A program made the position numbers and the translations under genes. The notes beneath the pieces were generated by a model. It did no database searches, was not told where the DNA came from, and was given only the letters and a program-made list of their open reading frames with translations. A DNA stretch of 64,000 bases from Niveispirillum irakense DSM 11586 (lineage in GTDB: Bacteria; Pseudomonadota; Alphaproteobacteria; Azospirillales; Azospirillaceae): NCBI RefSeq assembly GCF_000429645.1, contig NZ_AUCG01000001.1, positions 1 to 64,000 on the forward strand. Direction: 5' to 3'. Below, in pieces: positions 19,596 to 48,132 of this stretch (within the stretch, counting starts at the first letter, position 1; each line of letters opens with the position of its first letter).

Positions 19596-19614
19596 GATGA
19601 TTGCCCCGTCCCCC

Positions 19615-23606: not shown

Positions 23607-23968
23607 TGACCAATACCGCCGAACGCCCCCACGTCGTCAAAGACGCCAAGGGCAAGCGCCCGCAATTCTATGATGCGCCCGGTCTGGATCAGGCCATCTC
23701 AATGATCATGGTCATGGCCAACGAGATGTCTGTGCTGCACGACCGCGTCGACAGCATCGAGCGCGTGGCCAAGGAACAGGGCATCGATCTGGCCGCCGGG
23801 ATCGAAAAGCTGGTGCTGGACCAGGAAGCGCTGGAGGCCCGCGAAGCCTGGCGCCAGGATTTCCTGGAACGCCTGTTCTATCTGATGCGCAAGGAAGCCC
23901 GCGAGGCGTCCGAAGCCGACACCAAGGAACGCTATAACAGCACCATTGAAGAGATCGCGCGGGCCTGA
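23606..23968 (+). CDS. Small helical protein coupled to the methyltransferase
   Basis: 120 residues, charged and predicted helical, with a coiled-coil-like centre (SVLHDRVDSIERVAKEQGI) and an acidic/basic C-terminus (RKEAREASEADTKERYNS). There is no signal or membrane segment. I do not recognise a family. The ATG overlaps the methyltransferase stop by one base, so synthesis is coupled and a subunit or chaperone role for the methyltransferase is plausible. A terminator hairpin follows at 24031-24057. Confidence 0.7.
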   Translation: MTNTAERPHVVKDAKGKRPQFYDAPGLDQAISMIMVMANEMSVLHDRVDSIERVAKEQGIDLAAGIEKLVLDQEALEAREAWRQDFLERLFYLMRKEAREASEADTKERYNSTIEEIARA

Positions 23969-24030
23969 CGCCCGACCGATCCGGCTGGCCCTTTCCCTGT
24001 CGGCGCCTGCCGGTTTTACTGCCTCCCTGA

Positions 24031-24057
24031 CGCCACCCCGTTACCCATGGGGTGGCG
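24031..24057 (+). terminator. Terminator hairpin after the methyltransferase pair
   Basis: CGCCACCCC (24031-24039) pairs with GGGGTGGCG (24049-24057), nine perfect pairs, then CCTTTGTC. The T-run is short. Confidence 0.6.
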
Positions 24058-24098
24058 CCTTTGTCTGGGGAAGGCCCAACCACAACCCATAGTCCAAA

Positions 24099-24380
24099 AT
24101 GCAGCTTTCCCTCGACAACCATACCCTTCGACGCAGCCTGGGCGAGCCCACAAGCGTGCCCGAAGTGGTGATGATGATCCCAGCCTATTACCGGCTGTAT
24201 ATGCTGTTGCGTGGAGAGTTGCTGGGCGATGCCACGCGCGTGGTTCCGACCACGCAAAAGGGTTTGGCCGCCCATTACGGCGTGTGCCGGGGGACGGCCA
24301 GTGCAGCCTTGGCCCTGTTGAACCGGGACGGGCTGATCAAGCCCGCCCGTCGCGGTCGCCCCCGCCTACTTGACCGTTAA
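24099..24380 (+). CDS. Small winged-helix transcriptional regulator (GntR-like)
   Basis: 93 residues. The C-terminal half reads TTQKGLAAHYGVCRGTASAA, then LLNRDGLIKPARRGRP, a winged helix-turn-helix as in GntR-type regulators, but with no effector domain. The start is uncertain: ATG 24099 has no clear ribosome site, and ATG 24171 (MMIPAYYRLYMLL) is an alternative. The 3' end overlaps the convergent hydrolase gene by 15 bp. Its targets are unknown; the hydrolase and the methyltransferase operon are the nearest candidates. Confidence 0.6.
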   Translation: MQLSLDNHTLRRSLGEPTSVPEVVMMIPAYYRLYMLLRGELLGDATRVVPTTQKGLAAHYGVCRGTASAALALLNRDGLIKPARRGRPRLLDR

Positions 24381-25244
24381 GCGGGCCGGGCCGGTTTCCG
24401 ACAACCGGCCTGTCAAAGCCTGCAGGGCGGCCTTGTCACCGCCGGCATGGGCTTGCATGAACAGGACCGACAGATCGGTCGCGATGGCCAACTGGTCGGC
24501 CTGCACCGGCCCCGGCAGTTCCGGCCGACAGATGCCACCGCCGAAATAATGGTCCACCCCATCCAGCACCAGTGCGTAGCGATAGCCGCCGGGGGCTGCT
24601 TCCTCATAGGGCAGCAGGTGGCTGCGCCAGTCACCGCCGGGACCGGGGGGAACGTCCTTGTCACCAGTCTGGATCAGGGCCGGCACGGCGAGCGGTGCGT
24701 AATCCCCCGGATTGATAAAGCCCATACCGGCACCCGGCGGGGAGAAGGCCAGGACCGCCTTGGCACGCAGGTCGCGCAGCGGGGTCTTCACCTCCGGCGG
24801 CACGGCAATGGCCGACCCGCCCAGGCAGAGCGCGACCAGCCCGCCATAGGAATGGCCAGCGGCGATATAATCTCCGCCCAGATGGTCGGCCAGCGCACGC
24901 ACATCTTCAATCCGGGCTGACCAGCTTGCCATGCCCTGGAACTTGTCCCGGTCGGGATGGTCGGTTGAATCGACATGCAACGGCGCGTGGACGCTGTAGC
25001 CGGCCTTGGTCCAGGCATCGACCAGGGGCTGGTACTTCCACGGCGCCGACAAGGCACCGTGGGAGAACAGAATACGGCCCTTCTCCGGGCCCAGGGCTTT
25101 CCAGACACTGACGGGAACAGCGCGACCGGTAGAGGTCTTGACCGTCAGGTCAGCAGGACGGGGCGCAATCCCCTGGGCCAAAGCCGGCAGCGCCGCCGTG
25201 GCGGCCATGGACAGCAGCAATAAGCGGCGAGACAGCAAGGCCAT
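24366..25244 (-). CDS. Secreted alpha/beta hydrolase
   Basis: 292 residues with an N-terminal signal (LLLLSMAATAALPALAQG). The hydrolase fold shows ILFSHGALSAPWKY (oxyanion region), the nucleophile elbow GHSYGG with Ser132, an acid around QTGDKD and a C-terminal His in LDGVDHYFGG. The family includes dienelactone-hydrolase-like and cutinase-like esterases of the periplasm. Substrate unknown. Start at 25244 has GGAG nine bases upstream. Its upstream gap (25245-25498) holds a REP-like inverted repeat. Confidence 0.82.
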   Translation of the reverse strand: MALLSRRLLLLSMAATAALPALAQGIAPRPADLTVKTSTGRAVPVSVWKALGPEKGRILFSHGALSAPWKYQPLVDAWTKAGYSVHAPLHVDSTDHPDRDKFQGMASWSARIEDVRALADHLGGDYIAAGHSYGGLVALCLGGSAIAVPPEVKTPLRDLRAKAVLAFSPPGAGMGFINPGDYAPLAVPALIQTGDKDVPPGPGGDWRSHLLPYEEAAPGGYRYALVLDGVDHYFGGGICRPELPGPVQADQLAIATDLSVLFMQAHAGGDKAALQALTGRLSETGPARLTVK

Positions 25245-25345
25245 GGAGAGGCTCCGGGAGAAGGGTGGAATATTTATCAGTAACTTAAACGGTCACGCCA
25301 GTGGGGGTAAGGGCACAAACTTAGTCCCCTGGTGTAACGTGCTTT

Positions 25346-25423
25346 CCCCGCGAAAGCGGGGATCCAGGGCCAAGAGCACCAACCGTTCTTCTTGTGGCCC
25401 CTGGACCTCCGCTTTCGCGGGGG
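25346..25423. repeat. REP-like long inverted repeat
   Basis: An arm at 25346-25372 (CCCCGCGAAAGCGGGGATCC then AGGGCCA) is repeated inverted at 25395-25423 with three differences, each arm also being partly self-complementary. It lies in the 254-nt gap between the hydrolase and hyuB. The two-headed shape is typical of REP/BIME elements. Apart from it I see nothing in that gap. Confidence 0.7.
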
Positions 25424-25498
25424 AGGCAGATAGGTTCAGAGTTTTAAGTTAGGCCCCGGCCTTCACCAGAGTAACCCGATGAGGCCAGAGCCCGAAAC

Positions 25499-27370
25499 TC
25501 AAGCCGCCCAGTGACGCGGCTTCACCGGAGCCTTCGGCGCCGGCAGGCCGGTCTCAGCCAGGCTGTTGGCGCGCAGGGTTTCTATGTCGGGACCGAAATT
25601 GAAGATCTCGGTGATCGGGCCACGCGCGGTCCGCATCTTCTCCCGCAACGTCTCCGTGGCATCCACGTCGACCTTGCCGTCAACCAGTACCACACCGTAG
25701 CGCTTGGCCCCTTCCGCCGTCACCAGACCGCGCTCCAGTTCCAACTCCAGCAACTTGGGATCGCGGGCCAGCGGGTCGCCCCAGCCGCCACCGCCCCAGG
25801 TGATGAAGTGGAGCTGGTCGCCGGCTTCAACCGTCAGGTTCTCCAGCTTGTTACCGACGACAGTCTGGGTGCCGTCCGGCTTTTCCAGGACCTTGCGGGC
25901 CCGCGCTCCGGGTTCACCGCCATTCACACCCCAGGGGGAGGTGAACCAGCGGTCGTCATGGATGGCGATCACGCCCGGCTCCAGGAAGCGGTAGGTCATG
26001 ATAATGCCGTTGCCACCGCGATGCAGGCCGGCACCGCCACTGTCGGCCACCGTCTCATACCGCTCGATCACCAGCGGGAAATAGCGCTCCAGGAACTCGT
26101 TCGGCACGTTGGTGAAGCCGGGGAACAGGGAGTGCCCGTCCGGCCCATCACCCAGCGGGCGTCCGGGGATGCCGCCGAAGCCGATCTGGAACAACTGGAA
26201 CCAGCGGCCCTTGGCGTCATAGCCGGAATAGAACAGATGCGGGGAGGAGGAGAAGCCGGCCGCATTGAGGAATTCCGGCGTCTTCTGGCCCAGCAGCCCG
26301 CCCATGATGTCGAACAGGCGGCCCAGCGCGTGGGTGCGGCCCGACAGCGCCGACGGGAATTTCGGCTTCAACAGCGAGCCTTCGGGGATCTTCACCCGGA
26401 TCAGATCGTAATAGCCGTCATTGAACAGGATCTGCGGGTCGAAGACCATGATCATGTAGATGCCGAAGAACATCTTCAGCATGTTCTCGTTCAGCAGGAA
26501 ATTGATCGAGGCCTGGCTCTGCGGGTCGGTGCCCTCGAAATCCAGCACCACGATATCGCCTTCACGATGCATGGTGCAGCGGATCTTGTAGGGGCCGAAG
26601 CCCAGGCCGTCATCGCAGAGATAATCCTCGAAGCTGACCTTCTCCTCGCTGATGGAGGTGGCGATCAGATGCTTCATGGCGCGGTAATTGCGGGCCAGCA
26701 ACTCGTCAGTGGCGGCGGCAAACACATCGTCGCCAAACCGCTGGCACATCTCCACCACGCGGCGCGCGGCGACGCGGCAAGACGCGATCAGGGCGTTCAG
26801 GTCGGCCGTACACCATTCCGGCATGCGGGTCTGGGCCATGATCAGCTTGATCACGTCCTCATTATAGACGCCGTTCTTATAGATCTTCACCGGCGGGATG
26901 CGCACGCCTTCCTCGAAGATGGAGGTAGCGTCGATGGGCATGGAGCCGACGACCTTGCCGCCAATATCGGACTGGTGCCCGAACATCGAGGTATAGGCGA
27001 CCAGACGGCCATCCTTGAACACGGGCAGCAGGACAAGCCAGTCATTCAGATGGCTGATGGCGCCACCGACGGAGTAAGGGTCGGACAACATGATCATGTC
27101 GCCCTCCTCCACCGTGCCCTCATACCCGTCCAGGAAGGGGCCGATATAGGAGCCGAACTGGCCGACGATCATCTGGCCGGTACGGTCGGCGATCAGCGGG
27201 AAGGCGTCACCCTGCTCCCGGATGCCGGGCGACATGGCGGTGCGCACCAGGGTGGCATCCATCTCGATACGGGCATTGCGCAGGGCGTTCTCGATGACCT
27301 CAAGCGTCACCGGGTCGATGGTGACCTTGTTGAAGGGGGTGGTATTGGTCTGGATGATCTGTGCGGGCAT
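25499..27370 (-). CDS. Hydantoinase/oxoprolinase family, beta subunit (HyuB-type)
   Basis: 623 residues. The N-terminus (TIDPVTLEVIENALRNARIEMDATLVRTA) and the blocks SDPYSVGGAISHLNDWLVLLP and SGGAGLHRGGNGIIM are characteristic of HyuB/N-methylhydantoinase B/caprolactamase beta. The family opens cyclic amides or carboxylates acetone-like substrates, usually with ATP, together with the HyuA subunit. HyuA is encoded 15 nt upstream in the same direction, so the pair forms one enzyme. The start at 27370 has GGGGAG upstream. The neighbouring amine oxidase and cytochrome suggest that the substrate is a lactam or cyclic amide formed by amine oxidation (inference). Confidence 0.9.
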   Translation of the reverse strand: MPAQIIQTNTTPFNKVTIDPVTLEVIENALRNARIEMDATLVRTAMSPGIREQGDAFPLIADRTGQMIVGQFGSYIGPFLDGYEGTVEEGDMIMLSDPYSVGGAISHLNDWLVLLPVFKDGRLVAYTSMFGHQSDIGGKVVGSMPIDATSIFEEGVRIPPVKIYKNGVYNEDVIKLIMAQTRMPEWCTADLNALIASCRVAARRVVEMCQRFGDDVFAAATDELLARNYRAMKHLIATSISEEKVSFEDYLCDDGLGFGPYKIRCTMHREGDIVVLDFEGTDPQSQASINFLLNENMLKMFFGIYMIMVFDPQILFNDGYYDLIRVKIPEGSLLKPKFPSALSGRTHALGRLFDIMGGLLGQKTPEFLNAAGFSSSPHLFYSGYDAKGRWFQLFQIGFGGIPGRPLGDGPDGHSLFPGFTNVPNEFLERYFPLVIERYETVADSGGAGLHRGGNGIIMTYRFLEPGVIAIHDDRWFTSPWGVNGGEPGARARKVLEKPDGTQTVVGNKLENLTVEAGDQLHFITWGGGGWGDPLARDPKLLELELERGLVTAEGAKRYGVVLVDGKVDVDATETLREKMRTARGPITEIFNFGPDIETLRANSLAETGLPAPKAPVKPRHWAA

Positions 27371-27385
27371 GGATCACACTCCCCT

Positions 27386-29434
27386 TCAGCGCGGGTTGAT
27401 CAAGATATTGCCGACGCGGTCGACCAGGCCGTCACAGGCGGCTTCGATCAGCGTCGTGCTGTCCATTTCGATGACGATGGCGGGGCCCTGGATCAGGTCA
27501 CCGGCCTTCAGCTTGGACCGGTCATAGATCACGGCCGGCACCATCTTGCCGTCCATCCACAATTCATGATCGCGGATCTTGGCCGCCGATGGATCGCCAT
27601 TGCCCTGGGGCAGTTCAGCCGCCGGCAGGTCCAGCACGGGGCCCAGGGCCACGGCGCGCAGATTCACCAGTTCGTGCGCGGACTTCATGTTGAAGGTGAA
27701 CAGGCGGTGATGCTCATCGTCAAAGCGCTTGGTGACGCCGGCCAGCCCGTCGCGATGCAGCGTTTCCGGGTCGATGGACAGCGGCACCTCGAAGGCTTGG
27801 CCTTCATAGCGCACGTCAATCTCGAACAGGCTGGTGATATCCTCGTCCTTGATGCCCTCGGCCCGCAGCTCTTCCCGGGTCTGCTTGGCCATGGCATCCA
27901 GTACGGCCAGCACTTCCGCCTCATCCGTCTCATCAAACCGGCGGGAGAAAGAGCGGGCGGTCTCGGTACGCATGCGGGTCGTGGCATCACCCAGGGCGCA
28001 CAGCACGCCGGGGGAGACGGGCGACACGGCAGGCCAGGAGCCCATCAGGCGCGCCACGGCATTGACATGCAAGGGGCCGGCGCCACCAAAGCCCATCAGG
28101 GCGAAGTCGCGCGGGTCATAACCCTGCTGAACGGAGATCATGCGCAGCGCGCCGAACATGTTCTCGTTCACGATATCAATGATGCCGCGGGCGGCAGCAT
28201 AGAGATCAATGCCCAGCGTGTCAGCGATGGTCTGCACCGCCTTCTTGGCACCCTCCCGGTCCAGCTTGAAGGTGCCACCCAGCAAGGCTTCGGGCAGGTA
28301 GCCCAGCACGACATTGGCATCGGTCACGGTCGGCAGCGTGCCGCCCTTGCCATAGGCCACCGGGCCCGGCACGGCACCGGCCGATTGCGGGCCGACGCGC
28401 AGCGCCTTGGTCAGTTCCGGCACATAGGCGATGGAGCCACCACCGGCACCCACCGTCTTCACATCCAGGGAAGAGGCACGGACCGCCAGATGGCCAACCT
28501 CCGTCGTGCGCACCCGGCGCGGGTCCAGGTTTTCGATCAGGGCCACGTCGGTGGAGGTGCCGCCCACATCCAGGGTCAGGATGTTACGGATACCGCTATT
28601 GGCACCCACCCACAGCGCCCCGGTCACGCCACCAGCCGGGCCGGACATCAGCAGAGAGACGGGATGTTCTTCCGACTTTTCCGACGACATCAGCCCGCCA
28701 TCAGAACGCAGCAGCGACAGGCTGCCGGCAAAGCCACCACCACGCAGCTTTTCACGCAGGTTGCGGACATAACGGCCCACGATGGGGCGGACCGAGGCAT
28801 TGGCAACCGTGGTCAGCGTGCGCTCATATTCCTGCATCTCGGGCAGGACTTCATGGGAAAGCGACACCGGCACACCGGGCAGGATTTCTGCCGCCAGTTC
28901 ACCGACGCGCTTCTCATGCGCACCATTCAGATAGGCGTTCATCAGTGAAACGGTGACTGCCTCAACACCGCGCGCCTTCAGCTTTTCCAGGGCGGCACGG
29001 ATATCAGCATCGTCGATGGGGCGCAGTTCCTCACCATGGGCGGTCATGCGGCCCTTGATTTCGAACGTGTCTTCCAGCTTGGCCAGCGGCTCCGGCTTCG
29101 GCCAGACGATCCAGCCAGCAAGACCACCCGGCACGAAGGAGCGCGCGATCTGCATGATCTGGCGATAGCCTTCGGTGACGATCAGGCCGACCTTGGCGCC
29201 CTTGCCCTCCAGCACGGCGTTGGTGGCCACCGTCGTGCCGTGCAGGAAGAACTCCACGTCCGCCGGGGTGATGCCGGCCTTTTCGCAGATGGCCGTGACA
29301 CCGTTCAGGATGCCGACGGAACTGTCGGCGGGGGTTGAAGGGGTCTTATGGCGCCAGAAGGCCCCGGTATTGTCATTGAACAGCAGCAGGTCGGTGAAGG
29401 TGCCCCCCACATCGACGCCCAAGCGGTAACCCAT
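27386..29434 (-). CDS. Hydantoinase/oxoprolinase family, alpha subunit (HyuA-type)
   Basis: 682 residues from ATG 29434, chosen because GGGGGA lies six bases upstream; an ATG at 29446 adds four residues. The actin-like ATP-binding start is YRLGVDVGGTFTDLLLFN, followed by FLHGTTVATNAVLEGKGA, SHEVLPEMQEYERTLTTVANA, and LTLDVGGTSTDVALI in the second half. The family uses ATP to open imide and lactam rings with HyuB; relatives include 5-oxoprolinase, caprolactamase and acetone carboxylase. The acetone carboxylase third (gamma) subunit is not present nearby, favouring an amidohydrolase. Directly upstream is a 207-nt gap with two hairpins, then the cytochrome gene. Confidence 0.9.
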   Translation of the reverse strand: MGYRLGVDVGGTFTDLLLFNDNTGAFWRHKTPSTPADSSVGILNGVTAICEKAGITPADVEFFLHGTTVATNAVLEGKGAKVGLIVTEGYRQIMQIARSFVPGGLAGWIVWPKPEPLAKLEDTFEIKGRMTAHGEELRPIDDADIRAALEKLKARGVEAVTVSLMNAYLNGAHEKRVGELAAEILPGVPVSLSHEVLPEMQEYERTLTTVANASVRPIVGRYVRNLREKLRGGGFAGSLSLLRSDGGLMSSEKSEEHPVSLLMSGPAGGVTGALWVGANSGIRNILTLDVGGTSTDVALIENLDPRRVRTTEVGHLAVRASSLDVKTVGAGGGSIAYVPELTKALRVGPQSAGAVPGPVAYGKGGTLPTVTDANVVLGYLPEALLGGTFKLDREGAKKAVQTIADTLGIDLYAAARGIIDIVNENMFGALRMISVQQGYDPRDFALMGFGGAGPLHVNAVARLMGSWPAVSPVSPGVLCALGDATTRMRTETARSFSRRFDETDEAEVLAVLDAMAKQTREELRAEGIKDEDITSLFEIDVRYEGQAFEVPLSIDPETLHRDGLAGVTKRFDDEHHRLFTFNMKSAHELVNLRAVALGPVLDLPAAELPQGNGDPSAAKIRDHELWMDGKMVPAVIYDRSKLKAGDLIQGPAIVIEMDSTTLIEAACDGLVDRVGNILINPR

Positions 29435-29498
29435 CACATCCCCCATGTCTGGAAGGTCAAAATCTCTGTGTCAGCAGTAGCGGAAAGGCGCGTCGGCT

Positions 29499-29601
29499 CC
29501 ATCCTGTCAGCCCCGGCCTGACCGCTCTGCGGATGGCTTCAGGAAGACGCAGCAGCAAGGTGCAGAAACCCGTTCGCGGCCCCTGTAAACCAGGGACCGC
29601 G
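29499..29601. other. Two strong hairpins in the cytochrome-hyuA gap
   Basis: Read on the minus strand, a hairpin CGCGG-x-CCCTG / CAGGG-x-CCGCG (29575-29601) is followed by a longer stem: CCATCC/GGATGG (29499-29504 and 29531-29536) enclosing GTCAG/CTGAC (29506-29510 and 29518-29522). They lie in the leader of hyuA, or downstream of the cytochrome gene. No known riboswitch core was recognised. Confidence 0.45.
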
Positions 29602-29641
29602 CGGGGCTTAACCAGCAGGAAAAGACGAGCAGAGAGGGGAG

Positions 29642-30865
29642 TTACGGCGCTGCCGAACCCGTCTCACGCTTCAAAATGGTGATGATCGCCTTCTGTACGT
29701 CCGGATCGGTGACGTTACCGGAGGAGATGATCATCGACGTGCCGGGGGCAAACGCATCCGGGTTGTTCAAGAACTTCGCCATATTTTCATCCGTCCAGGT
29801 TTCCCCGGCCTGCCCATGGGCAGCAAGGCTGTCGCCATAAGGGAAATTTGGCACGGTGGCGATCTTCTGGCCGAAGATGCCGTACAGGTTCGGCCCCACC
29901 AGGTGGGCACCGCCCTTATTCATGGTGTGGCAGAAGGTACACCATTTGAAGGTTTCGGCCCGGACCTTCCGCTCGAATTCCGTTTCCGGCGGCAATTGCT
30001 CCACCACCAGCGGGGCGTCATGGGACGTGATGTGCGCTTCGGCTTCCACCCGCTGCCCTTGGGCCAAGGGGGAAACGCGGAACAGCATATAGGGACCATA
30101 CATGCCGACGCCGACAACGATAGCCGTTGCCAGAACCGCCGGCACCACGCCGCGCACCGCCTGCGGCTCGGCCACCTGCGTGACGCGGCCACGCCGCACC
30201 AGCCAGCCCAGACCCCAGATGGCACCGCAGATGGCCAGGAAAATGGCCACCGCCGCCGGCCCCCGCTCATAGGATTTGAACGTGGACAGCGCGAAGACGG
30301 ATGAACTGAAGCTCAACAGAATGAACAGGCCATAGCCCGGCGGGAAAGCGGCGAACAGCCCGCGACCATGGCGGAACAGGAGCCAGACGGCCGTCAGCAA
30401 AACCACCAGTTTCAGGACAAGAAGGCTGGTGCTGACACCGGAATGGAAATAGCCGGTAAACAGCCAGATATCCCGATCCTCCCCCATCAAAGCGGGGATC
30501 GGGATCGGCCCCAGATGCAGGTTCATGCCGTGGCTCCACACCACGAACACACCCAGTATCGGCGCAATGAAGAACATCAGATAGGTGGCGTTGACCAGGG
30601 TCATGGTCCAGGAACGGGCGCGGGGCGGCAGCGGGGCCTGCGGCCCCGGTGCCCTGCCCTTCAACCATTGCCAGAGGCGCATGACCGCATACAGGAACAG
30701 CGCGGTGCCCAGAAAATAATGCCAGCCGCGCAACTGCTCGCGAATAGGTGCTGCCTTATCGGCGCGCAGCAGGAACATGGTCAGCACATCATGCACCAGC
30801 ACCAGAGCCGGCAGCATATAGGCCAGGATTTTCTCCAACGGCCTGTTCGCGTCACGGTGTTCCAT
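29642..30865 (-). CDS. Cytochrome b561-like / cytochrome c fusion protein
   Basis: 407 residues. About seven helices occupy residues 10-260, with candidate haem-b His residues in LVHDVLT, GWHYFLG, VWSHGMNLH and YFHSGVS, as in cytochrome b561-type proteins. A periplasmic class I cytochrome c follows: CTFCH with Cys309 and a distal Met in APGTSM. The fusion would take electrons at the periplasmic c haem and feed the membrane quinone pool, or the reverse. It starts 31 nt after the flavin amine oxidase stop in the same direction, so the cytochrome is the likely electron acceptor of that exported flavoenzyme, as known for the nicotine oxidoreductase NicA2 with its cytochrome c. The pairing is inference. 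Confidence 0.82.
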   Translation of the reverse strand: MEHRDANRPLEKILAYMLPALVLVHDVLTMFLLRADKAAPIREQLRGWHYFLGTALFLYAVMRLWQWLKGRAPGPQAPLPPRARSWTMTLVNATYLMFFIAPILGVFVVWSHGMNLHLGPIPIPALMGEDRDIWLFTGYFHSGVSTSLLVLKLVVLLTAVWLLFRHGRGLFAAFPPGYGLFILLSFSSSVFALSTFKSYERGPAAVAIFLAICGAIWGLGWLVRRGRVTQVAEPQAVRGVVPAVLATAIVVGVGMYGPYMLFRVSPLAQGQRVEAEAHITSHDAPLVVEQLPPETEFERKVRAETFKWCTFCHTMNKGGAHLVGPNLYGIFGQKIATVPNFPYGDSLAAHGQAGETWTDENMAKFLNNPDAFAPGTSMIISSGNVTDPDVQKAIITILKRETGSAAP

Positions 30866-30896
30866 TATCTGTTACCCCTCCGCCCCGTTCGGGGTC

Positions 30897-32369
30897 TCAG
30901 ATTTTTTCCAGGATTTCCATGGCAGCAGCTTCACCGGTTTCCATGGCGCTTTCCATGCCATGTTCCAGGCGCCGCAGATGCTCACCAGCGAAGTGGATGC
31001 GTCCGGCGGGCTTGCCCATTTCGGTCGCAAAACGCTTTACCTGGCCCGGCGCATAGAAATGCTTGTTGCCGCCCACATAGGGGTTACGGCCCCAGCTATA
31101 ACCGATCTTATATTCCAGGGCGCCCGCCATGCTGGGCCGGATGCGGGCCAGTTCGGCCAGCACCAGTTCGACCTGCTTATTGGTATCCCGGTCGTCCCAG
31201 CGGGTGGCACCGTCACCATTGACCCAGACGATCATCGTGTCGATCGCGTCCGTCTCCGGATTTTTCAGCGCGAAAGCGCGCTCGAAGGAGGCGTTGCTCC
31301 AGATCGAGGGCGGCAGGCCGTCCTTTTCCCAATAGGCATTCTTGATCTTGAAATGGAACTGGGTCGTGGCGGAATAGCGCGCGCCGGCGATGGCATCAGC
31401 CTGGGCATCCGGCAGGCCGGGGGTGAAGCGAATGCGGCTGACAGCGCTGAAGGGCGCCGCCATGACCAGGAAGCGGCTGGTCAGCACATCGCCATTGCCA
31501 AGACGGGTTTTCACCTGATCGCCAGCCTGATCAATGGCGATGACAGGGCTGTTCAGACGAACCGGCAGCTTCAGCGCCGCCGCCATGGCGCGCGGCAACA
31601 TGTCGGAACCACCGACAATGTAGCTGCGATCCGACACAAGCGCGGCACCGCCATATTGCGGCTTGTTGGGGTCTTTAAACCCTTCCACCTGGGCACGGGC
31701 CATGTCACGGAAGATCGAAAGGGCCGAAACCCCTTCCAGGCTGGCCCCGTTCAGATCCACATCCGCCAGACGGATCGCCGCCTCCGAAATACCTTTGGAG
31801 CGCATCAACTCAGCAGCGGAAATGTCGAATTGCATATTCTCGGGCTGCAGCCACGCATTGGTCTGGTTGAAGGGCAGCCAGTCATGCATCAGGCGGTTTT
31901 GCAGGATATAGGGAAGGAAATCGCGTTCCTTGCCACGGGTCTGGTTGACGGGCGACTTGGCCCAGTCGGACGGCAGCACGCTGGTGCCATCGACATTCAG
32001 CAAAAACTCGGTGCCCTTGGCGCCCTTGGTGGTCAGTCCGACATTATGGCGGGCGCAGGCATCACGGACACGGCCATAGAGCGCCCCTACCTCGCTGCCA
32101 CCCAGTTCCGCCTGATAGCCTTCGGCCCGGCCGGTGCGCAAACGACCGCCAACGCGGTCGGAAGCTTCCACCACCTGCACAACCAGGCCCTGTTCCTCCA
32201 GCATCGCGGCCGCGTTCAGGCCGGCCAGACCAGCACCGACGACGACGACATCGACTTGGGCAGGGCCAGCGGCCCAGCCGCGGGAGCCAATAATCAAGGG
32301 AGCGGCAGCCATCATGCCGCCCACGACAGCGCGGCGGGACAGGATCGGCGAGGAATTCTTGAAGCTCAT
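30897..32369 (-). CDS. Tat-exported flavin amine oxidase/dehydrogenase
   Basis: 490 residues from ATG 32369. The leader SRRAVVGGMMAAAPLIIG is a twin-arginine signal ending near WAAGPA. The FAD site follows at once: VVVGAGLAGLNAAAMLEEQG, VVEASDRVGGRLRTG. The C-terminal FAD segment is GRIHFAGEHLRRLEHGMESA. This is the monoamine-oxidase/NicA2-like family, which oxidises amines or N-heterocycles to imines. The substrate is unknown; the closest functional analogy is an exported amine dehydrogenase using the neighbouring cytochrome. An upstream hairpin separates it from the TonB receptor gene, which may deliver the substrate. Confidence 0.88.
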   Translation of the reverse strand: MSFKNSSPILSRRAVVGGMMAAAPLIIGSRGWAAGPAQVDVVVVGAGLAGLNAAAMLEEQGLVVQVVEASDRVGGRLRTGRAEGYQAELGGSEVGALYGRVRDACARHNVGLTTKGAKGTEFLLNVDGTSVLPSDWAKSPVNQTRGKERDFLPYILQNRLMHDWLPFNQTNAWLQPENMQFDISAAELMRSKGISEAAIRLADVDLNGASLEGVSALSIFRDMARAQVEGFKDPNKPQYGGAALVSDRSYIVGGSDMLPRAMAAALKLPVRLNSPVIAIDQAGDQVKTRLGNGDVLTSRFLVMAAPFSAVSRIRFTPGLPDAQADAIAGARYSATTQFHFKIKNAYWEKDGLPPSIWSNASFERAFALKNPETDAIDTMIVWVNGDGATRWDDRDTNKQVELVLAELARIRPSMAGALEYKIGYSWGRNPYVGGNKHFYAPGQVKRFATEMGKPAGRIHFAGEHLRRLEHGMESAMETGEAAAMEILEKI

Positions 32370-32398
32370 GGGGCGTCTTCCAACCGTTGAAAACAAGA

Positions 32399-32423
32399 TC
32401 CCCCCGGCCGCGAGCCGGGGGGA
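32399..32423 (-). terminator. Hairpin between TonB receptor and amine oxidase
   Basis: TCCCCCCGGC (32399-32408) pairs with GCCGGGGGGA (32414-32423), ten perfect pairs directly after the receptor stop (minus strand). No T-run is present, so it may only attenuate expression of the downstream oxidase. Confidence 0.6.
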
Positions 32424-32438
32424 TGATGACGAGAAGGA

Positions 32439-34880
32439 TCAGAACTTGGCGCTTGCCGTGACGCCGAAGCGGCGGCCTTCACCCGGGTAGATTTCCATGA
32501 TGCGCTGGGTGCCGACTGAGTAGTTACGCGGCTGCTGGATGACGTTGGCGTTGTAGCGCTCGTCGGTCAGGTTCGTGACCCAGGCCGCGATGGAGTAAGT
32601 ATCGCTTTCCAGTGCCAGACGCAGGTTGGTCAGCGTACGTTCACCGAAGCTGGTGACATTCAGGCTGTTGGTGTAGCTGGGACCGGTATAGTTCACATCC
32701 ACACGGCCCGACAGGTTCCAGTCGGCGGAAACCGGCACATCAGCCGTGGCATGCACATTATACTGGAGCTTCACCGACCGGGCCGGACGATGGCCGGCGA
32801 TGGAAGCCTGCAGGCCGCGTCCCGGAACGGTGATCAGCTCGCAGGTTGTGGACGGGTTGCCGCACTGGGTCGAGTAGGCCGGATCATAGACATTCTTGCC
32901 GAACTTCGGATCGGAATAGGTCACAGAACCACCGACTGACAGGATGTCGGTCGCCTTCACTTCCGTCTGAACCTCGAGACCATTGGTCTTCATGTCACCG
33001 ACATTGGTGATGATGGCCTGGGTGACGACGGGATTGGAAGAGAAGGTGGAGATCTGCAGGTTGGTCCAGTCCACACGGAAGACCGAGGCATTCAGCATGA
33101 CGCGACGGTCGAACAGCCAGGACTTCACGCCCGCTTCATAGGTCCAGTTCTCTTCTTCCTCGAAAGTCAGTTCGCTGGCGGCCAGGCCGCCCACGGCATT
33201 GAAACCGCCCGAACGCACACCCTTGGCAGCAGACGCAAACAGGAACACGTCTTCGTTCACCTTGTAGTCGGCGGTGAAGCGGGGCGTGAAGCTTTTGAAT
33301 TCTGCCGTCAGCGGCTGACCTGCCGGACACGGCCCATAGGCGCCGAAGAAGGTGACGATGCAGCTATCGGTCTTGCGGTCGATATTGTAGCGGCCTTCCG
33401 CAGAAACCCGCAGCCCGTCCACAATCTCATAGCCAAGCGAGCCGAACACTGACTTGGTGACGTTCTGGCGATAATTGAGGCTTGAGAGAATGGTCTTGGC
33501 GGAGCTGTCCGGCACCAGCGACAGGTTGGACAGAGTGGCCAACGGGCCGGTACCGGCCGGCATGCCCGGCAACACCTGTACCAGACGCTCATTGGGCGCC
33601 AGACCCGGGGCGCTGGTGCTCGCCAGGGCTTTGGATTCCACGTTGGACTGGAAGAACAGGGCGCCGGCCAGCCACTGGAAACGGTCGCTATCCGGCGACT
33701 GGATACGCAGTTCCTGGCTCTTGGTGACCACCTCGTCATTGCTGACCAGAACGGAATTGCCATTCACCGTGCGGGTGTAACTGCCCGTAGTCGCACCGCA
33801 GGTGCTGCCCAGGGTACAGACACCATAAGGGGCACCCGCGCCCGTCACATCGGAATCACCCCAAGCCGTCACGGCGGAGGAGGTGAAGCCGGTAACACTG
33901 ACGACCGAGAAGCGGTCGAACTCATATTCCAGTTCAAGGGCCGCCTGACGGGCACGCGATGTGCTGTCGGGAATGTTGGCGGTTCCATCCGTCGGGCGAT
34001 CCGTCGGCAATTTACCGCAATAAAGGAAATAGGCCTGCGTCTGGGCATTGAAGCCGCCGCAATTATGCAGGCTGATCGGGGCCAGGGCCAGACCGGACAA
34101 TTCCATGGTGGATTTGGTGGCAAAACCCGTCAGCGTAGCCGTCAACGCTTCAGTGGGCGTGAAGACCAGTGCACCAGAGACACCGCGCTTCTCATACCCG
34201 CCCATCTTGTCGGAGGGGTTGGAGGCGTTCTTGAATTCCCCGCCATAGGTCGAGTAGCTGGCCGCGACATGGGCTGCGAGCTTGTCTTCAATGATCGGCT
34301 TGGACAGCGAAACCTTACCCCGGTAGTCGCCATTATTGCCAACAGTAACCGTCGCCTTGCCCTCTGGCTCATTGCCGGGGCGGGCGGTGGTGATGCCGAC
34401 GGCGCCTGCGAAGGTGGAGCGGCCATACAACGCGCTCTGCGGTCCCTTCACCACATCCAACTGGGCAATATCAACGGTACCCAGAACGTCTGCCGTATTA
34501 CGGCTGGTCTGATAGATGCCGTCGATGAAGATGCCGACATTGGCCTCGACATTCAAATCCTGGGAGGAATTGGCTGGCGCCAGACCACGGACATAAACGT
34601 TGGTGAACGTGCCGCCAGTGATATTGGTAACCGTGATGCCTGGCGTGGTGCTGCCGAGATCGGTCAGGCTGGTGATGTTACGCTCAGCCAGATCATCGGC
34701 GGTCAGGGCCTGAATGGAGATCGGAACCGTCTGGATGTCTTCCTTACGCTTACGCGCGGTGACGATGATCTCTTCCAGCATCAGACCGTCGTTCGCCAGT
34801 GCCACCGGCACAATGGCAGAAGCGGCGAAGGCGCCGACCAGCGCGGACGTGGTCATCGCGATTAATTTGGAACGATACAT
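32439..34880 (-). CDS. TonB-dependent outer-membrane receptor
   Basis: 813 residues from ATG 34880 (GAGGGGG upstream). Signal peptide YRSKLIAMTTSALVGAFAAS ends near PVALA; a TonB-box-like segment EEIIVTARKRKEDIQTVPIS follows. The plug (DLGSTTPGITVTNITGGTF, VDIAQLDVVKGPQSALYGRS) is intact, and the barrel ends in VTASAKF with terminal Phe. It belongs to the sphingomonad-type receptor group that imports sugars, aromatics or other nutrients rather than siderophores. Four adjacent genes (receptor, amine oxidase, cytochrome, HyuAB) share its direction, so this may be the substrate importer. Confidence 0.92.
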   Translation of the reverse strand: MYRSKLIAMTTSALVGAFAASAIVPVALANDGLMLEEIIVTARKRKEDIQTVPISIQALTADDLAERNITSLTDLGSTTPGITVTNITGGTFTNVYVRGLAPANSSQDLNVEANVGIFIDGIYQTSRNTADVLGTVDIAQLDVVKGPQSALYGRSTFAGAVGITTARPGNEPEGKATVTVGNNGDYRGKVSLSKPIIEDKLAAHVAASYSTYGGEFKNASNPSDKMGGYEKRGVSGALVFTPTEALTATLTGFATKSTMELSGLALAPISLHNCGGFNAQTQAYFLYCGKLPTDRPTDGTANIPDSTSRARQAALELEYEFDRFSVVSVTGFTSSAVTAWGDSDVTGAGAPYGVCTLGSTCGATTGSYTRTVNGNSVLVSNDEVVTKSQELRIQSPDSDRFQWLAGALFFQSNVESKALASTSAPGLAPNERLVQVLPGMPAGTGPLATLSNLSLVPDSSAKTILSSLNYRQNVTKSVFGSLGYEIVDGLRVSAEGRYNIDRKTDSCIVTFFGAYGPCPAGQPLTAEFKSFTPRFTADYKVNEDVFLFASAAKGVRSGGFNAVGGLAASELTFEEEENWTYEAGVKSWLFDRRVMLNASVFRVDWTNLQISTFSSNPVVTQAIITNVGDMKTNGLEVQTEVKATDILSVGGSVTYSDPKFGKNVYDPAYSTQCGNPSTTCELITVPGRGLQASIAGHRPARSVKLQYNVHATADVPVSADWNLSGRVDVNYTGPSYTNSLNVTSFGERTLTNLRLALESDTYSIAAWVTNLTDERYNANVIQQPRNYSVGTQRIMEIYPGEGRRFGVTASAKF

Positions 34881-35178
34881 GAAGCCCCCTCGGATTTTCA
34901 GTTTGTTTGTGTGGTTATTTTCTGGCGCCAAGTTCCCGCTTGTTGGCGACTGCACTTTATTTGGCAGACAATTCGCGAAATCTGTTAGGATTCACGAAGT
35001 CATTTCAGTTGCAGTCCGTGAGCCAGAGTTTCACCGGTCCTGTCAGCTAATTCCTTTAGCGAACTTTCCTCAACAATCCCGGCGGCGCTGTCCGTCAAGT
35101 GGACAAGGATTTTCGGAGCAGACCTGCATCCAGGCGGGTTGGGCGTATCTTGGCGTCAGACTTTTCCGGGATAGCTCA
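34881..35178. other. Divergent gap, receptor (-) and DUF3089 gene (+)
   Basis: 298 nt, noticeably AT-richer than its surroundings (runs such as CACTTTATTTGGCAG), so it probably holds divergent promoters. I found no convincing dyad or -35/-10 pair. Confidence 0.4.
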
Positions 35179-36264
35179 ATGAGACAGACCGTTTTTCTGG
35201 CGACCGCCATCCTGTTGGGAACGGCTTTTCCGGCCGCTGCCGCTGGGGGGGCACCGCCCTCCTTCGCGCAACAGCCGCCGCCGCCGGTGCCTGATTATGC
35301 GAATCCCAGCGCCTGGGCCGCCCGTCCGACGGCTCCCGGCGCCAGCGCTGCCCTGCCGACCGGCGCCGATACGACCCGTCCCGCAGCAGAAATCGACGTG
35401 TTCTACGTCCATCCCACCACCTACCGCAGCAAGGACAGGTGGAACCAGGATATTGCCGATCAGGCGACCAATGCCTGGACTGATGCCAGTGTCATCGCCC
35501 GTCAGGCGGGGGTCTTCAATGGCTGCTGCCGGGTCTATGCCCCTCGCTATCGTCAGGCATCATCCCTCTCTTTCATGGCCATGGAAGGCGATGGCGGCAA
35601 AGCCTTCGATCTGGCTTATGAGGATGTGAAGAGCGCCTTCGACTATTATCTGAAGCATGAAAATCAAGGCCGTCCATTCATTCTGGCCGGTCACAGCCAG
35701 GGCGCGCGCCACTTGATGCATCTGCTGGAAGACCGGATCGACGGGACCCCGCTGGCACGGGAAATGGTTGCCGCCTATATCGTGGGTGTGAACCTGTCGG
35801 AAGGCGATTTTCCCAAGACCTACAAGACCATCTCCATCTGCGACGAGCCCGACCAGACCCGCTGTGTCATCGCCTGGAATGCCGTCCTGCCGGAATTTAA
35901 CATCGCCATGATGGCCGCAGCCGGGGAACGGCGTTATGTGGAGCGATATGGCGATGATCCGGGGAAACGGGCCCTTTGTATCAATCCGGTCACCTTTGAC
36001 AGGGCAAAACCCGTCTCCACCGCCGAGCAGGCCCTGGGTGCCGTTCCCGGCGAGCCAGGGGAGGGGCCGATGCAGCCGCTACGCGCCAAGGCTGTCGGCG
36101 CACGATGCGAGCAAGGCTATCTGGTTGTTGAACCCGCTGCCGATCTGGACCTGACGTCCCTGCCCGGTGGCAGCATGCATTATCATGATTACGGCCTCTT
36201 CTATGCCGATATCCGGGCCAATATTCGGGTTCGGATCGACAATTTCCTGAAAGCCAAACCGTAA
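35179..36264 (+). CDS. Secreted DUF3089 alpha/beta hydrolase
   Basis: 361 residues from ATG 35179; the frame is open far upstream but that part is antisense to the receptor. Signal peptide RQTVFLATAILLGTAFPAAAA is followed by a Pro-rich linker. The DUF3089 domain shows VFYVHPTTYRSKDRWNQ, the nucleophile elbow GHSQGARH with Ser173 and a C-terminal HYHDYGLFYADI with the likely His. The family is lipase/esterase-like with unknown substrates. It stands alone on this strand, with a terminator at 36270-36301 shared with the convergent aldehyde dehydrogenase. Confidence 0.85.
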   Translation: MRQTVFLATAILLGTAFPAAAAGGAPPSFAQQPPPPVPDYANPSAWAARPTAPGASAALPTGADTTRPAAEIDVFYVHPTTYRSKDRWNQDIADQATNAWTDASVIARQAGVFNGCCRVYAPRYRQASSLSFMAMEGDGGKAFDLAYEDVKSAFDYYLKHENQGRPFILAGHSQGARHLMHLLEDRIDGTPLAREMVAAYIVGVNLSEGDFPKTYKTISICDEPDQTRCVIAWNAVLPEFNIAMMAAAGERRYVERYGDDPGKRALCINPVTFDRAKPVSTAEQALGAVPGEPGEGPMQPLRAKAVGARCEQGYLVVEPAADLDLTSLPGGSMHYHDYGLFYADIRANIRVRIDNFLKAKP

Positions 36265-36269
36265 AAGGA

Positions 36270-36301
36270 AAAGGGTCGCGGCGATGATGCTGCGACCCTT
36301 T
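36270..36301. terminator. Terminator between DUF3089 and aldehyde dehydrogenase genes
   Basis: AAAGGGTCGC (36270-36279) pairs with GCGACCCTTT (36292-36301), ten perfect pairs, extending inward with GC/GC around the loop. It sits between convergent stops. Confidence 0.75.
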
Positions 36302-36326
36302 ATGGCTGTAATTACGATGGCAAAGG

Positions 36327-37841
36327 TCACAGCCGGGCTGTGACCGCCTTCGTCTGGAGATAGGCATCCAGCCCTTCGCGACCAAATTCCCGTCCCCAGC
36401 CCGACTGTTTGTAGCCGCCGAACGGGATGTTGGTGGCGATAGCGCCGTGGCAGTTGATTGAGACCTGCCCGGACCGGATGCGCGATACCAGCTTGTGCGC
36501 GGTGGAAAGGCTGCGGGTCCATACGCTGCCGGACAGGCCATAGACGCTGTCATTGGCCATGGCCGCAATGGTGTCCACATCCTCTGTCTCGAAGCGGTGG
36601 ATGGCCATGACGGGGCCAAAAATCTCCTCCCGGAACACGGCCATGTCGGGGCTGACATCTGTCAGAATGGTCGGTGGCACAAAATGGCCGGCGCGGTCCA
36701 GCTTCTGTCCACCCAGCACGACGCGGGCACCATCGGCACGGGCGCGATCAATATGGGCCATGACGCGGGCGGCATGGGCAGCGCTGATCAGCGGCCCGAA
36801 ATTGACCGCCGGGTCCAGCCCATGGCCGAGGGTGAACCCCTTGGCGAAAGCGACGATCCGTTCAACCAGCGCATCATGGACGGCGCTATGCACGAAGATT
36901 CTTGTGCCGGCCATGCAGTTCTGGCCCTGCAGGAAAAAGGTCGCCATGGCAACGCCGGGACCCGCCAGATCAAGATCCGCATCCGGCATCACCACCACCG
37001 GGGACTTGCCCCCCAGTTCCAGTGACACTTTCTTCAGATTGCCGGCCGCTGCCTGCACAATCTTCCGCCCAACTTCCGTCGACCCGGTGAAGCTGATCTT
37101 GTCCACGTCCGGATGGGCGGAAAGGGCGGCGCCCGCCGTTTCCCCCGGACCGTTGACGATATTCACCACACCCGGCGGGAAGCCCGCCTCTATGATCAGT
37201 GCGCCGAGTGCCAGAGCCGAAAGCGGCGTTTCTTCCGCCGGCTTGACAACAACCGTACAGCCGGCGGCCAGCGCCGGGGCCAGCTTCAGCACCAGCGTGG
37301 AGACGGGCACGTTCCAGGGGACGATCAAGCCGACCACGCCCACCGCTTCGCGCAATGTATAGGTCAGCGCCTCCGCATCTGCCGTGACATGCGGCGGCGG
37401 GGTGGTTGTCACCCCTTCGATACCCAGGATGCAGCCGGCATAATAGTCGAACATCTCGACACAATTACTGACCGTCAGCCCGGCGATGAAGCGGGGCATG
37501 CCATTGTCCAGGATTTCCAGTTCCGTGAACAGGGCGGCATCCCGCTCCAGCAGGCGGGCCAGCCGGTTGATCAGCCCGGCCCGCTCCCGTGCCTTCAGCC
37601 GCGACCAGGGACCGTTGAAAGCATGCCCTGCCGCCGCCACCGCATCGTCGATATCGGCAGCACCGCCGGATGCGACGCTGGCCAAGAGCCTCTGCGTGGC
37701 CGGATCGGACGTGGTCAGGCTGTCGCCCGCGCGACCTTGCCGCCATTCGCCGTTGATCAGCAGCCCATGCCGCTTTGCCAGGAACGCCTGCGTGGCGGGG
37801 GAAACGGCATGGCCGTCAAACGGCTGGGCTTCAATCGACAT
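36327..37841 (-). CDS. NAD(P)-dependent aldehyde dehydrogenase
   Basis: 504 residues. The Rossmann and catalytic blocks are intact: LIVPWNVPVSTLVLKLAPAL, FTGSTEVGRKIVQAA, general-base Glu in LELGGKSPVVV and nucleophile Cys309 in QGQNCMAGTR, then FGPVMAI and the C-terminal FGGYKQSGWGREFG. The class oxidises aliphatic or aromatic aldehydes to acids. It ends 15 nt after the FAD monooxygenase stop on the same strand, so they are a two-gene operon under the IclR-type regulator divergently encoded at 39361. Confidence 0.92.
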   Translation of the reverse strand: MSIEAQPFDGHAVSPATQAFLAKRHGLLINGEWRQGRAGDSLTTSDPATQRLLASVASGGAADIDDAVAAAGHAFNGPWSRLKARERAGLINRLARLLERDAALFTELEILDNGMPRFIAGLTVSNCVEMFDYYAGCILGIEGVTTTPPPHVTADAEALTYTLREAVGVVGLIVPWNVPVSTLVLKLAPALAAGCTVVVKPAEETPLSALALGALIIEAGFPPGVVNIVNGPGETAGAALSAHPDVDKISFTGSTEVGRKIVQAAAGNLKKVSLELGGKSPVVVMPDADLDLAGPGVAMATFFLQGQNCMAGTRIFVHSAVHDALVERIVAFAKGFTLGHGLDPAVNFGPLISAAHAARVMAHIDRARADGARVVLGGQKLDRAGHFVPPTILTDVSPDMAVFREEIFGPVMAIHRFETEDVDTIAAMANDSVYGLSGSVWTRSLSTAHKLVSRIRSGQVSINCHGAIATNIPFGGYKQSGWGREFGREGLDAYLQTKAVTARL

Positions 37842-42875: not shown

Positions 42876-42876
42876 C

Positions 42877-44247: not shown

Positions 44248-44269
44248 ATAAACAGGGAGAGTGTGATCT

Positions 44270-45676: not shown

Positions 45677-45739
45677 GGGGCGCGGGACACTCCCGCCCCG
45701 TCATAAGCACGACCTTTATCCGTCCGCGAGAGCCAAGCC

Positions 45740-47044: not shown

Positions 47045-47053
47045 GCCCCGTGG

Positions 47054-47746: not shown

Positions 47747-48132
47747 GCCCCGCCCCGCAGCGCATCCAGATAAAGACGCACTTGCAGGAACTGCGGCAGG
47801 CCATCCTGGATCATGGTGTCAACCGGTCGGGCACCACTGAATAAAGGCCCCTGGTTGGGCAGGGTGATCCAGCGGGCAGCAATTTCGTCCCCGAAGTATA
47901 AGGCCAGCGCCTTATAGATGCCGATCACCGCGCTGAGCCGCAGCATCTGGTCATGCGTCAGATCCGCGACATAGCCGGGCTTCCTCGCCCGCTTCCAGGT
48001 GCTGTCCGACATATCGGCCAGGGCCGCCGCTTCGGCCAAGGTCAGGCCCCAATGCTGCACAATGCGGCCATAGGCCTTCAGCGCAATGGCATTTCTGTCC
48101 GCTGCCGACGGGTGCTGCAGGACAACATCCAT
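47743..48132 (-). CDS. Xre/MbcA/ParS-type antitoxin (DUF2384 family)
   Basis: 129 residues. The N-terminal part (LKAYGRIVQHWGLTLAEAAA, LADMSDSTWKRARKPG) is the HTH of Xre-type antitoxins; the C-terminal part (LSAVIGIYKALALYFGDEIA) and PNQGPLFSGARPVDTMIQ-like block is the MbcA/ParS toxin-binding domain. It neutralises the RES toxin encoded immediately after it and represses the operon. A 13-bp perfect dyad over its promoter (48162-48197) fits autoregulation. Confidence 0.9.
   Translation of the reverse strand: MDVVLQHPSAADRNAIALKAYGRIVQHWGLTLAEAAALADMSDSTWKRARKPGYVADLTHDQMLRLSAVIGIYKALALYFGDEIAARWITLPNQGPLFSGARPVDTMIQDGLPQFLQVRLYLDALRGGA

Follow-up and report, generated by a model that had tools for sequence, protein, structure and literature searches.

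A Tat-type flavoenzyme of Niveispirillum irakense that probably donates electrons to a membrane-tethered cytochrome

Introduction

A stretch of 64,000 nucleotides from Niveispirillum irakense DSM 11586 (contig NZ_AUCG01000001.1, positions 1 to 64,000; hereafter the window) contains a catabolic cluster of approximately 24 kb. Within it, on the minus strand, lie genes for a TonB-dependent receptor (TBDR), a flavoprotein of the flavin amine oxidase (FAO) superfamily (AO), a membrane protein that joins a b-type domain to a cytochrome c (cytbc), and the two subunits of a hydantoinase/oxoprolinase-family enzyme (HyuA and HyuB). An earlier note on this DNA placed the five genes on one strand in this order. 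The order is verified by Pfam matches, and codon scoring calls each of the five open reading frames (ORFs) as a gene.

The locus raises the question of where the flavoenzyme sends its electrons and whether the five genes serve one pathway. The answer proposed here is that, in freshwater bacteria, an exported enzyme probably oxidises a nitrogen compound and passes the electrons to a membrane-tethered cytochrome, not to O2. Taken as a whole, with uptake by TBDR, dehydrogenation by AO, cytbc as the acceptor and ring opening by HyuAB, this is the best explanation of the locus and is considered rather likely. Most parts of the gene set are known; their arrangement is new.

The AO flavoenzyme

AO matches PF01593 over its full length (positions 1–443 of 443; 171.2 bits, cut-off 19.8). 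Its N-terminus contains the sequence LSRRAVVGG, which is of Tat type by motif only and is kept in orthologues. Under a loose pattern, 62 of 64 AO-family members have an RR motif before the FAD motif. This family set comes from AO similarity searches, is not a random sample and is dominated by Sphingomonadaceae. Its members are 72 ORFs minus eight in the wrong frame; L017 (the same place as L037), L032 (a contig fragment) and L038–L044 (places otherwise covered or short) had been left out earlier. Here and below, L numbers are individual loci that were read, G000 is the source genome, and G000–G010 are the genus set of 11 genomes.

In published work, a Tat-signal FAO with an adjacent cytochrome c is predicted to be a dehydrogenase, and O2 rapidly oxidises those Tat FAOs that have no cytochrome c encoded nearby (PMC12224317). 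Both predictors are present here: the Tat motif and, 31 nt away, cytbc with its class I c domain. AO shares the Tat signal, the PF01593 flavoenzyme and the adjacent cytochrome c gene with NicA2/CycN, Pnao and other cytochrome c-using FAO dehydrogenases, and electrons presumably go to cytochrome c in both cases. AO differs from the NicA2 type in that it is closer to L-amino acid oxidase (LAAO) and monoamine oxidase (MAO) chains by pairwise score, its N5 lysine is replaced, its acceptor is fused to a b-type domain, and it is linked to a TBDR.

The closest solved chains are LAAOs (105.7 bits) and the MAO-type chain 8p84 (101.5 bits), with E-values from 2e-29 to 4e-28. NicA2 (structure 7c4a) scores 66.2 bits; these are pairwise scores only, in which LAAO and MAO types score higher. 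Gln346 of AO (numbering of the 499-aa ORF) aligns with the LAAO lysine that we take to be the lysine at flavin N5. Gln is invariant at this position in an alignment of 12 sequences and is found in 19 of 19 close orthologues. Across the 64 AO-family members the position holds Q (31), R (9), F (9), I (5), M (4), S (2), H, L, A and K (one each), and is therefore not Lys in 63 of them. At 31–37% identity this position rests on MAFFT alignments; two alignments agree for their common members. The sole member that aligns with Lys is L098 (G525:C10).

The N5 lysine is described as nearly universal, with Glu in a few enzymes; a Lys-to-Glu enzyme has the lowest O2 rate tested, and the equivalent residue of NicA2 is Lys340 (PMC12224317). 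O2 reactivity correlates with how this lysine is positioned (PMC12272882). The replacement by Gln is the reason to propose that the electrons of AO go to the c domain of cytbc rather than to O2. The Tat motif, the adjacent cytochrome and the absent N5 lysine together suggest that AO, as the earlier note had proposed, is probably an exported-type flavoenzyme that donates to cytochrome c. The switch between O2 and cytochrome c in FAOs is given as an open question in PMC12224317. The lysine-less AO group, with its varied N5 residues (Gln, Arg, Phe, Ile, Met and others, and one Lys), constitutes a natural test series for it.

L101 (G000:C12:41085-42452), the other strong FAO of the source genome and likewise of Tat type, serves as a control. 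It has Lys in the same alignment, an RR motif, and a CXXCH protein as its next gene; L101 and this c-type protein are probably another FAO–cytochrome dehydrogenase pair. Three further PF01593 matches of the genome (L103–L105) give no usable alignment at N5.

The nature of the substrate is less certain. Glu102 of AO aligns with the LAAO arginine that presumably binds the substrate carboxylate. Glu102 is invariant in the 12 sequences, and Gln, Tyr and Thr take its place in distant relatives. Because this arginine is not conserved, AO was rejected as a plain L-amino acid oxidase, and the amine substrate of the earlier note is weakened, which counts against that part of the proposal. The positions presumed to form the aromatic cage (by the MAO B motif) hold Lys445 and Gly480. 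Some FAO superfamily relatives desaturate C-C or C-O bonds. It is possible, but on the unlikely side, that AO acts in this way on a non-basic substrate instead of oxidising an amine. Glu102, Lys445, Gly480 and the missing N5 lysine agree with such a reaction; against it stand the nearest solved relatives, which oxidise amino acids and amines, and the strong co-occurrence of AO with HyuAB (see below). Dehydrogenation of a nitrogen compound remains preferred.

Of the 64 family members, 27 have a TBDR match no more than 500 nt from AO, and 36 have one within 1.5 kb. A plasmid search found AO in three Novosphingobium records at 32–36% identity, with no annotation in the regions viewed of two, and no match to cytbc. 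An AlphaFold model of AO from eight sequences (76–93% identical) had a mean pLDDT of 33.9 and was not used.

Cytochromes beside AO relatives

Eight of the 64 AO-family members directly adjoin cytbc, and in L033 and L034 the two are one gene apart. In a further 10, a free class I cytochrome c is next door. Nine of these are clear, with the CXXCH 371–607 nt from the AO core, and one (L074) overlaps and is ambiguous. If a 3.3 Mb genome holds 5–20 class I cytochromes, approximately 0.1–0.5 such neighbours are expected, and ten of 54 has a chance probability of 4e-17 to 3e-11 with relatedness ignored. In a FastTree phylogeny, the cytochrome-adjacent members are scattered over several branches. We infer electron transfer from AO to cytbc on three grounds: the two genes adjoin, the published rule applies, and free cytochrome c genes recur next to AO relatives.

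A genome survey is congruent with this pairing. Its counts are lower bounds, with up to five AO, six cytbc and three HyuA candidates scored per genome. Among 298 Sphingomonadaceae genomes, cytbc is present in at least 8, the AO family in at least 29, and both in at least 6 (Fisher 1.3e-5). In sphingomonad loci (L020 with L049, L030 with L050), cytbc and a 61–64% identical AO lie approximately 16 kb apart in one cluster.

Several observations weigh against the pairing. Class I cytochrome c is found only at approximately 1–4 kb in 11 of the 64 members, and in 33 none is within the fetched stretch, some stretches being short. Three of four sphingomonad genomes with a 62–64% identical AO lack cytbc. 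Conversely, G352, a metagenome-assembled genome, contains cytbc and no AO at E ≤ 1e-10, and several cytbc loci adjoin a beta-lactamase-family hydrolase with no AO; AO presence was checked for 9 of 20 cytbc loci. The co-occurrence tests, here and below, are Fisher tests that ignore relatedness. Oxidase and dehydrogenase are also said not to be reliably told apart from sequence (PMC12224317).

AO could, in view of these points, be an ordinary periplasmic oxidase that passes electrons to O2 and forms H2O2, with the neighbouring cytochrome serving another enzyme. The fast O2 reaction of published Tat FAOs that lack a nearby cytochrome c (PMC12224317), the 33 members without one, and the occurrence of cytbc without AO are in keeping with an oxidase. 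The absence of the N5 lysine from 63 of 64 members and the recurrence of cytochrome adjacency in separate branches of the AO tree are not, and an oxidase is judged improbable. The dehydrogenase is the preferred reading, and cytbc may serve several flavoenzymes.

In two cytbc loci without AO (L062 and L064), another FAD-type dehydrogenase-like ORF, identified by eye, lies beside cytbc and a methyltransferase gene (MT). An MT-like gene is present in 20 of 26 cytbc loci read and a relative of its small partner s120 in 16 of 26, some of these contigs being short and some loci lacking AO or HyuAB.

The cytbc fusion protein

The C-terminal part of cytbc is a class I cytochrome c, with CTFCH at residues 309–313 and a distal Met. 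C309, C312, H313, M378, H49 and H141 are invariant in 24 of 24 orthologues. The structural model has seven predicted helices followed by the c domain (mean pLDDT 80). The c domain matches the fold of mitochondrial cytochrome c (Z 13.5, rmsd 1.9, 101 residues), and among the matches listed by Foldseek and VIA only the c domain is covered. Positive charges are more common in the loops that the predicted topology places inside.

The b part is less easily classified. The earlier note described cytbc as a b561/c fusion; the c half of this description stands, but the b561 label is weak. As in prokaryotic cytochrome b561, there is a PF01292 match (residues 28–163), but its 15.8 bits are below the cut-off of 30.1. 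Of the 24 aligned orthologues, 18 match the profile at E ≤ 0.01 (best 2.4e-5); the cytbc of the window is not one of these 18. Unlike prokaryotic cytochrome b561, cytbc has three more helices, a single invariant His pair and the C-terminal cytochrome c. The b561 proteins carry a second haem pair, which is not conserved in cytbc. Apart from H49 and H141, no histidine of the b part is invariant. In the predicted topology both lie near the starts of helices that enter from the periplasm, which makes a single haem b close to the c domain likely. This arrangement lends no support to electron transfer across the membrane.

The same residues bear on the direction of electron flow. A class I cytochrome c normally has a higher potential than ubiquinone, and transfer from the c domain through the b domain to quinone would therefore be uphill. 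With the single periplasmic-side His pair, this makes the direct route to the quinone pool in the earlier note its weakest step and a point against that form of the proposal. The b part may instead work in reverse and oxidise quinol (or superoxide), so that the c domain would receive electrons from AO as well as from the b domain. The potentials of class I cytochrome c and ubiquinone, and the position of the one invariant His pair, suit this arrangement; the same pair could equally form a quinone-reducing site, and reversed flow is regarded as a distinct possibility that falls short of likely. In either direction, the b/c fusion would serve an FAO-type dehydrogenase as a membrane-bound electron acceptor. 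Clade 1 FAOs are associated with dihaem c4 cytochromes bound to the membrane, and in subclade 3F the FAO and cytochrome c are fused directly to each other (PMC12224317).

FADox, another flavoprotein of the cluster, was considered as a partner of cytbc and rejected. It has no signal peptide by eye and would be on the wrong side of the membrane.

HyuAB and its association with AO

Mutation has identified six important residues in the caprolactamase CapAB of Pseudomonas jessenii (PMC8453981). Both ATP-site Asp residues and all four metal-site residues are present in HyuAB. D12 and D293 of HyuA lie in two DxGGT motifs and match CapA D11 and D295 (by motif, not alignment), and D55, H107, D110 and H132 of HyuB align with CapB D41, H99, D102 and H124. 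HyuAB differs from CapAB in scoring 541.9 and 216 bits, far under the NCBIfam equivalog cut-offs (1000 each). The top solved match of both HyuA (473.7 bits) and HyuB (219.2 bits) is N-methylhydantoinase (PDB 7hk5), which differs in being a single fused chain with Gln aligned to HyuB H132. Acetophenone carboxylase was rejected as an identity for HyuAB: HyuA scores 335.3 against a cut-off of 1500 (ApcC) and 187.3 against 1250 (ApcA), and HyuB 129.1 against 1500 (ApcD). No further carboxylase subunit was noticed by eye beside HyuAB.

With the HyuA subfamily defined at E ≤ 1e-200, at least 76 of the 298 sphingomonad genomes contain HyuA. Of the 29 genomes with AO, 24 have HyuA (p 1.1e-11), as do all eight with cytbc (p 1.3e-5). 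Among 59 relatives, AO is present in 12, HyuA in 12 and both in 11 (p 5e-10). There are 17 places where the distance can be read on one contig (16 AO–HyuA, one cytbc–HyuA). In 13 the distance is 70 kb or less, a limit chosen afterwards, and in four (G447, G494, G588, G390) it is 0.6–1.3 Mb. AO and HyuA are within 70 kb in 10 sphingomonad genomes plus G011 and G028, and L106–L109 have both inside 20 kb.

The neighbours of HyuAB were read in 16 loci, eight from genomes with AO and eight from genomes without. In the AO genomes, a methylisocitrate-lyase-like gene is beside HyuAB in four of eight (L106, L109, L110, L121), and a flavin hydroxylase (FMO), an aldehyde dehydrogenase (ALDH) and an allantoinase-PuuE-like gene are nearby in four of eight (L106, L107, L109, L110). 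The remaining context differs: three of the eight (L108, L111, L112) show the HMGL-like/CoA transferase surroundings of the AO-less loci. In all eight AO-less genomes, HyuAB lies beside HMG-CoA-lyase-like, CoA transferase, TBDR and GntR-like genes (the last by eye); an isochorismatase-family gene is present in six, and Asp/Glu/hydantoin-racemase-family and SnoaL-like genes in three. Of the neighbour representatives compared with NCBIfam, only HMGL-like, LeuC and LeuD are above a curated cut-off. Judged by their families, the neighbours suggest the opening of a cyclic amide or imide followed by amide hydrolysis.

L111–L120, from sphingomonads most of which lack AO, contain a compact HMGL-like/HyuA/HyuB/CoA transferase III block accompanied by TBDR and GntR-like genes. 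An isochorismatase-family gene is often present as well, and Asp-Glu-racemase-like and SnoaL-like genes occasionally.

Transcript organisation

The intergenic gaps are 69 nt (TBDR–AO), 31 nt (AO–cytbc), 195 nt (cytbc–HyuA), 15 nt (HyuA–HyuB) and 254 nt (HyuB to the alpha/beta hydrolase gene abH). A terminator-like hairpin lies between TBDR and AO at 32398–32424 on the minus strand, with a 12-pair stem and a T-rich tail, and hairpins of this type are found in four other loci (L014, L015, L016, L036). The scan for terminator hairpins found 11 overall where 8.5 are expected. A strong hairpin also lies 3' of cytbc (29569–29605, minus strand, ends approximate); it has a TTTT tail in L015, L036 and L029, and the copies in the window and in L014 lack a T run.

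HyuA has a conserved element of its own approximately 75–100 nt upstream. A portion of it, CCGCAGAGCGGTCA at 29519–29532 on the minus strand, is kept with at most one mismatch in eight of eight aligned HyuA upstream regions, including L052, where AO rather than cytbc precedes. At two mismatches the pattern occurs once in the window, and approximately one occurrence is expected by chance, so the argument is one of conservation and not of rarity. No shared operator or regulon site is claimed from the window, in which this pattern is found once (two mismatches) and a second conserved piece twice (three mismatches). A promoter scan of 24000–36500 gave one match against 3.1 in shuffled sequence and located no promoter.

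Conservation of gene order

In the genus set, cytbc is full length in eight of 11 genomes. The copy in G004 is split across two contigs, and G003 and G007 have matches to the c domain only. The order TBDR–AO–cytbc–HyuA–HyuB is uninterrupted in the window, L013 (TBDR cut by the contig start), L014, L015 and L036. In L016, two additional genes are inserted between cytbc and HyuA, and L032 and L029 are the two halves of the set in G004. L017/L037 and L018 have AO–cytbc–abH with neither HyuAB nor TBDR alongside. The genome of L037 has a second locus, L052, with TBDR–AO–HyuA–HyuB and no cytbc, and a third, L053, with TBDR–AO alone. In the sister genus (G011, G035), a DUF3089 gene sits between AO and cytbc. 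G042 has cytbc, and AO is not on its 16.8 kb contig.

Related genomes retain the order with proteins that are 78–95% identical, which argues that the gene set is not a chance arrangement. The same five-gene order, for which the earlier note had suggested a search, is thus contiguous in related loci of the genus, but only parts of it are shared beyond.

Three findings weigh against the five genes as a single system. The exact order is confined to one genus, while the individual parts are spread wider. The hairpins, the element upstream of HyuA and the two genes inserted in L016 argue against a single transcript; subject to transcript data, the units are read from the sequence as TBDR, AO–cytbc and HyuAB, with no evident single operon, and the idea of one operon is weakened accordingly. 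In addition, 52 of the 298 sphingomonad genomes have HyuA without AO. HyuAB could thus be a general cyclic-amide/imide module, acquired independently, whose placement beside AO in Niveispirillum is incidental. Its separate upstream element and the other partners (HMGL-like, CoA transferase, TBDR) in eight AO-less genomes and in three of eight with AO point the same way. Against this stand the 24 of 29 AO genomes that carry HyuA and the short AO–HyuA distances given above, and an incidental placement is thought doubtful. The preferred reading is that HyuAB probably belongs to the same pathway, as a unit with its own promoter. Lactam opening by HyuAB, part of the earlier note, gains from the intact lactam-hydrolase-type active site and the co-occurrence with AO.

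Proposed pathway

In the pathway that best accounts for these results, TBDR would import a bulky nitrogen-containing compound into the periplasm. AO, folded and loaded with FAD, would be exported by Tat, as its motif suggests, and would dehydrogenate a C-N (possibly C-C) bond of this compound. Reduced FAD would give its electrons singly to the class I c domain of cytbc, which the b-type domain would anchor in the inner membrane. The electrons would most likely leave the c domain for a terminal oxidase, with the lone periplasmic-side b haem as a link to quinone that may run in either direction. The oxidised product would enter the cytoplasm through two transporters of the cluster, MFS1 and MFS2. 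FMO, ALDH and the ATP-dependent HyuAB would act there, HyuAB opening a cyclic amide or imide.

The earlier note did not recognise the combined set. The FAO–cytochrome c half of it is in print (PMC12224317), and no description of the whole set was found in the literature searched. Neither the lysine-less TonB-linked group, nor the b/c-fused acceptor, nor the coupling to HyuAB was found described there, including the available part of PMC12224317. The co-occurrence with HyuAB points to a nitrogen-ring pathway without a description in that literature.

A more far-reaching proposal is offered tentatively and is thought unlikely to hold in full. The AO family may be a new alphaproteobacterial clade of exported, TonB-receptor-linked flavoenzymes that have lost the O2-activating lysine and become obligate cytochrome c dehydrogenases, with the acceptor fused to a b-type domain in Niveispirillum and its sister genus. 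The pathway might lead from pyrrolic or N-heterocyclic pigments or alkaloids to cyclic imides and substituted maleates, with LeuCD-like hydration and methylisocitrate-lyase-like cleavage. The idea of a tetrapyrrole or dialkylmaleimide substrate is not a result; it draws on the known chemistry of 2,3-dimethylmaleate hydratase and 2,3-dimethylmalate lyase.

Other genes of the window

The run of cluster genes extends from IclR to FADox by gene calls (Table 1). A GTG upstream of TBDR, at 34955, is also possible as its start. The nearest solved chains of FMO are hydroxybenzoate-, tropone-, vanillate- and 6-hydroxynicotinate-type enzymes.

Table 1. Positions and profile matches of the genes of the cluster in the window
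Gene	Description	Coordinates	Strand	Profile match
IclR	IclR-type regulator, divergent to FMO–ALDH	39361–40206	+	PF09339/PF01614
FMO	Flavin aromatic/heteroaromatic hydroxylase	37857–39005	-	PF01494
ALDH	Aldehyde dehydrogenase	36327–37841	-	PF00171
DUF3089	DUF3089 (lipase-like) protein	35179–36264	+	PF11288, 241.9 bits
TBDR	TonB-dependent receptor, 813 aa from ATG	32439–34880	-	PF07715 Plug, PF00593 TonB barrel
AO	Tat-type FAO/Amino_oxidase superfamily flavoprotein, 490 aa	30897–32369	-	PF01593, 171.2 bits
cytbc	b-type membrane domain (7 predicted helices) and C-terminal class I cytochrome c, 407 aa	29642–30865	-	
HyuA	ATP-binding subunit, hydantoinase/oxoprolinase family, 686 aa	27386–29446	-	Hydant_A_N, Hydantoinase_A, Hydant_A_C
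HyuB	Metal-site subunit, 623 aa	25499–27370	-	Hydantoinase_B PF02538, 496.2 bits
abH	Alpha/beta hydrolase, adjoins the gene set in related loci	24366–25244	-	PF12697
s120	120-aa protein paired with MT	23606–23968	+	No Pfam match
MT	S-adenosylmethionine (SAM) methyltransferase of the wider cluster	22368–23606	+	PF13649
DUF1838	DUF1838 protein	21126–22109	-	PF08894
MFS1	MFS_2-type transporter	19615–20970	-	PF13347
MFS2	MFS transporter	18375–19628	-	PF07690
FADox	FAD_binding_4 flavoprotein, no signal peptide by eye	16687–18267	-	PF01565, 113.2 bits

MT, which has a long N-terminal part, and s120 form a two-gene unit at 22368–23968. A second acid catabolic block, identified by eye and partly by profile, adjoins the cluster at 41508–55376. 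It contains two MmgE/PrpD-like proteins, a PaaK-like ligase, an amidase, two CoA transferases, and MaoC-like and CitE-like proteins. At 54489–55376 there is an allantoinase-PuuE-like protein whose 244.8 bits are below the cut-off of 424.6. A large molybdenum-hydroxylase-like ORF, identified by eye, occupies 59820–63998 and is cut by the end of the window.

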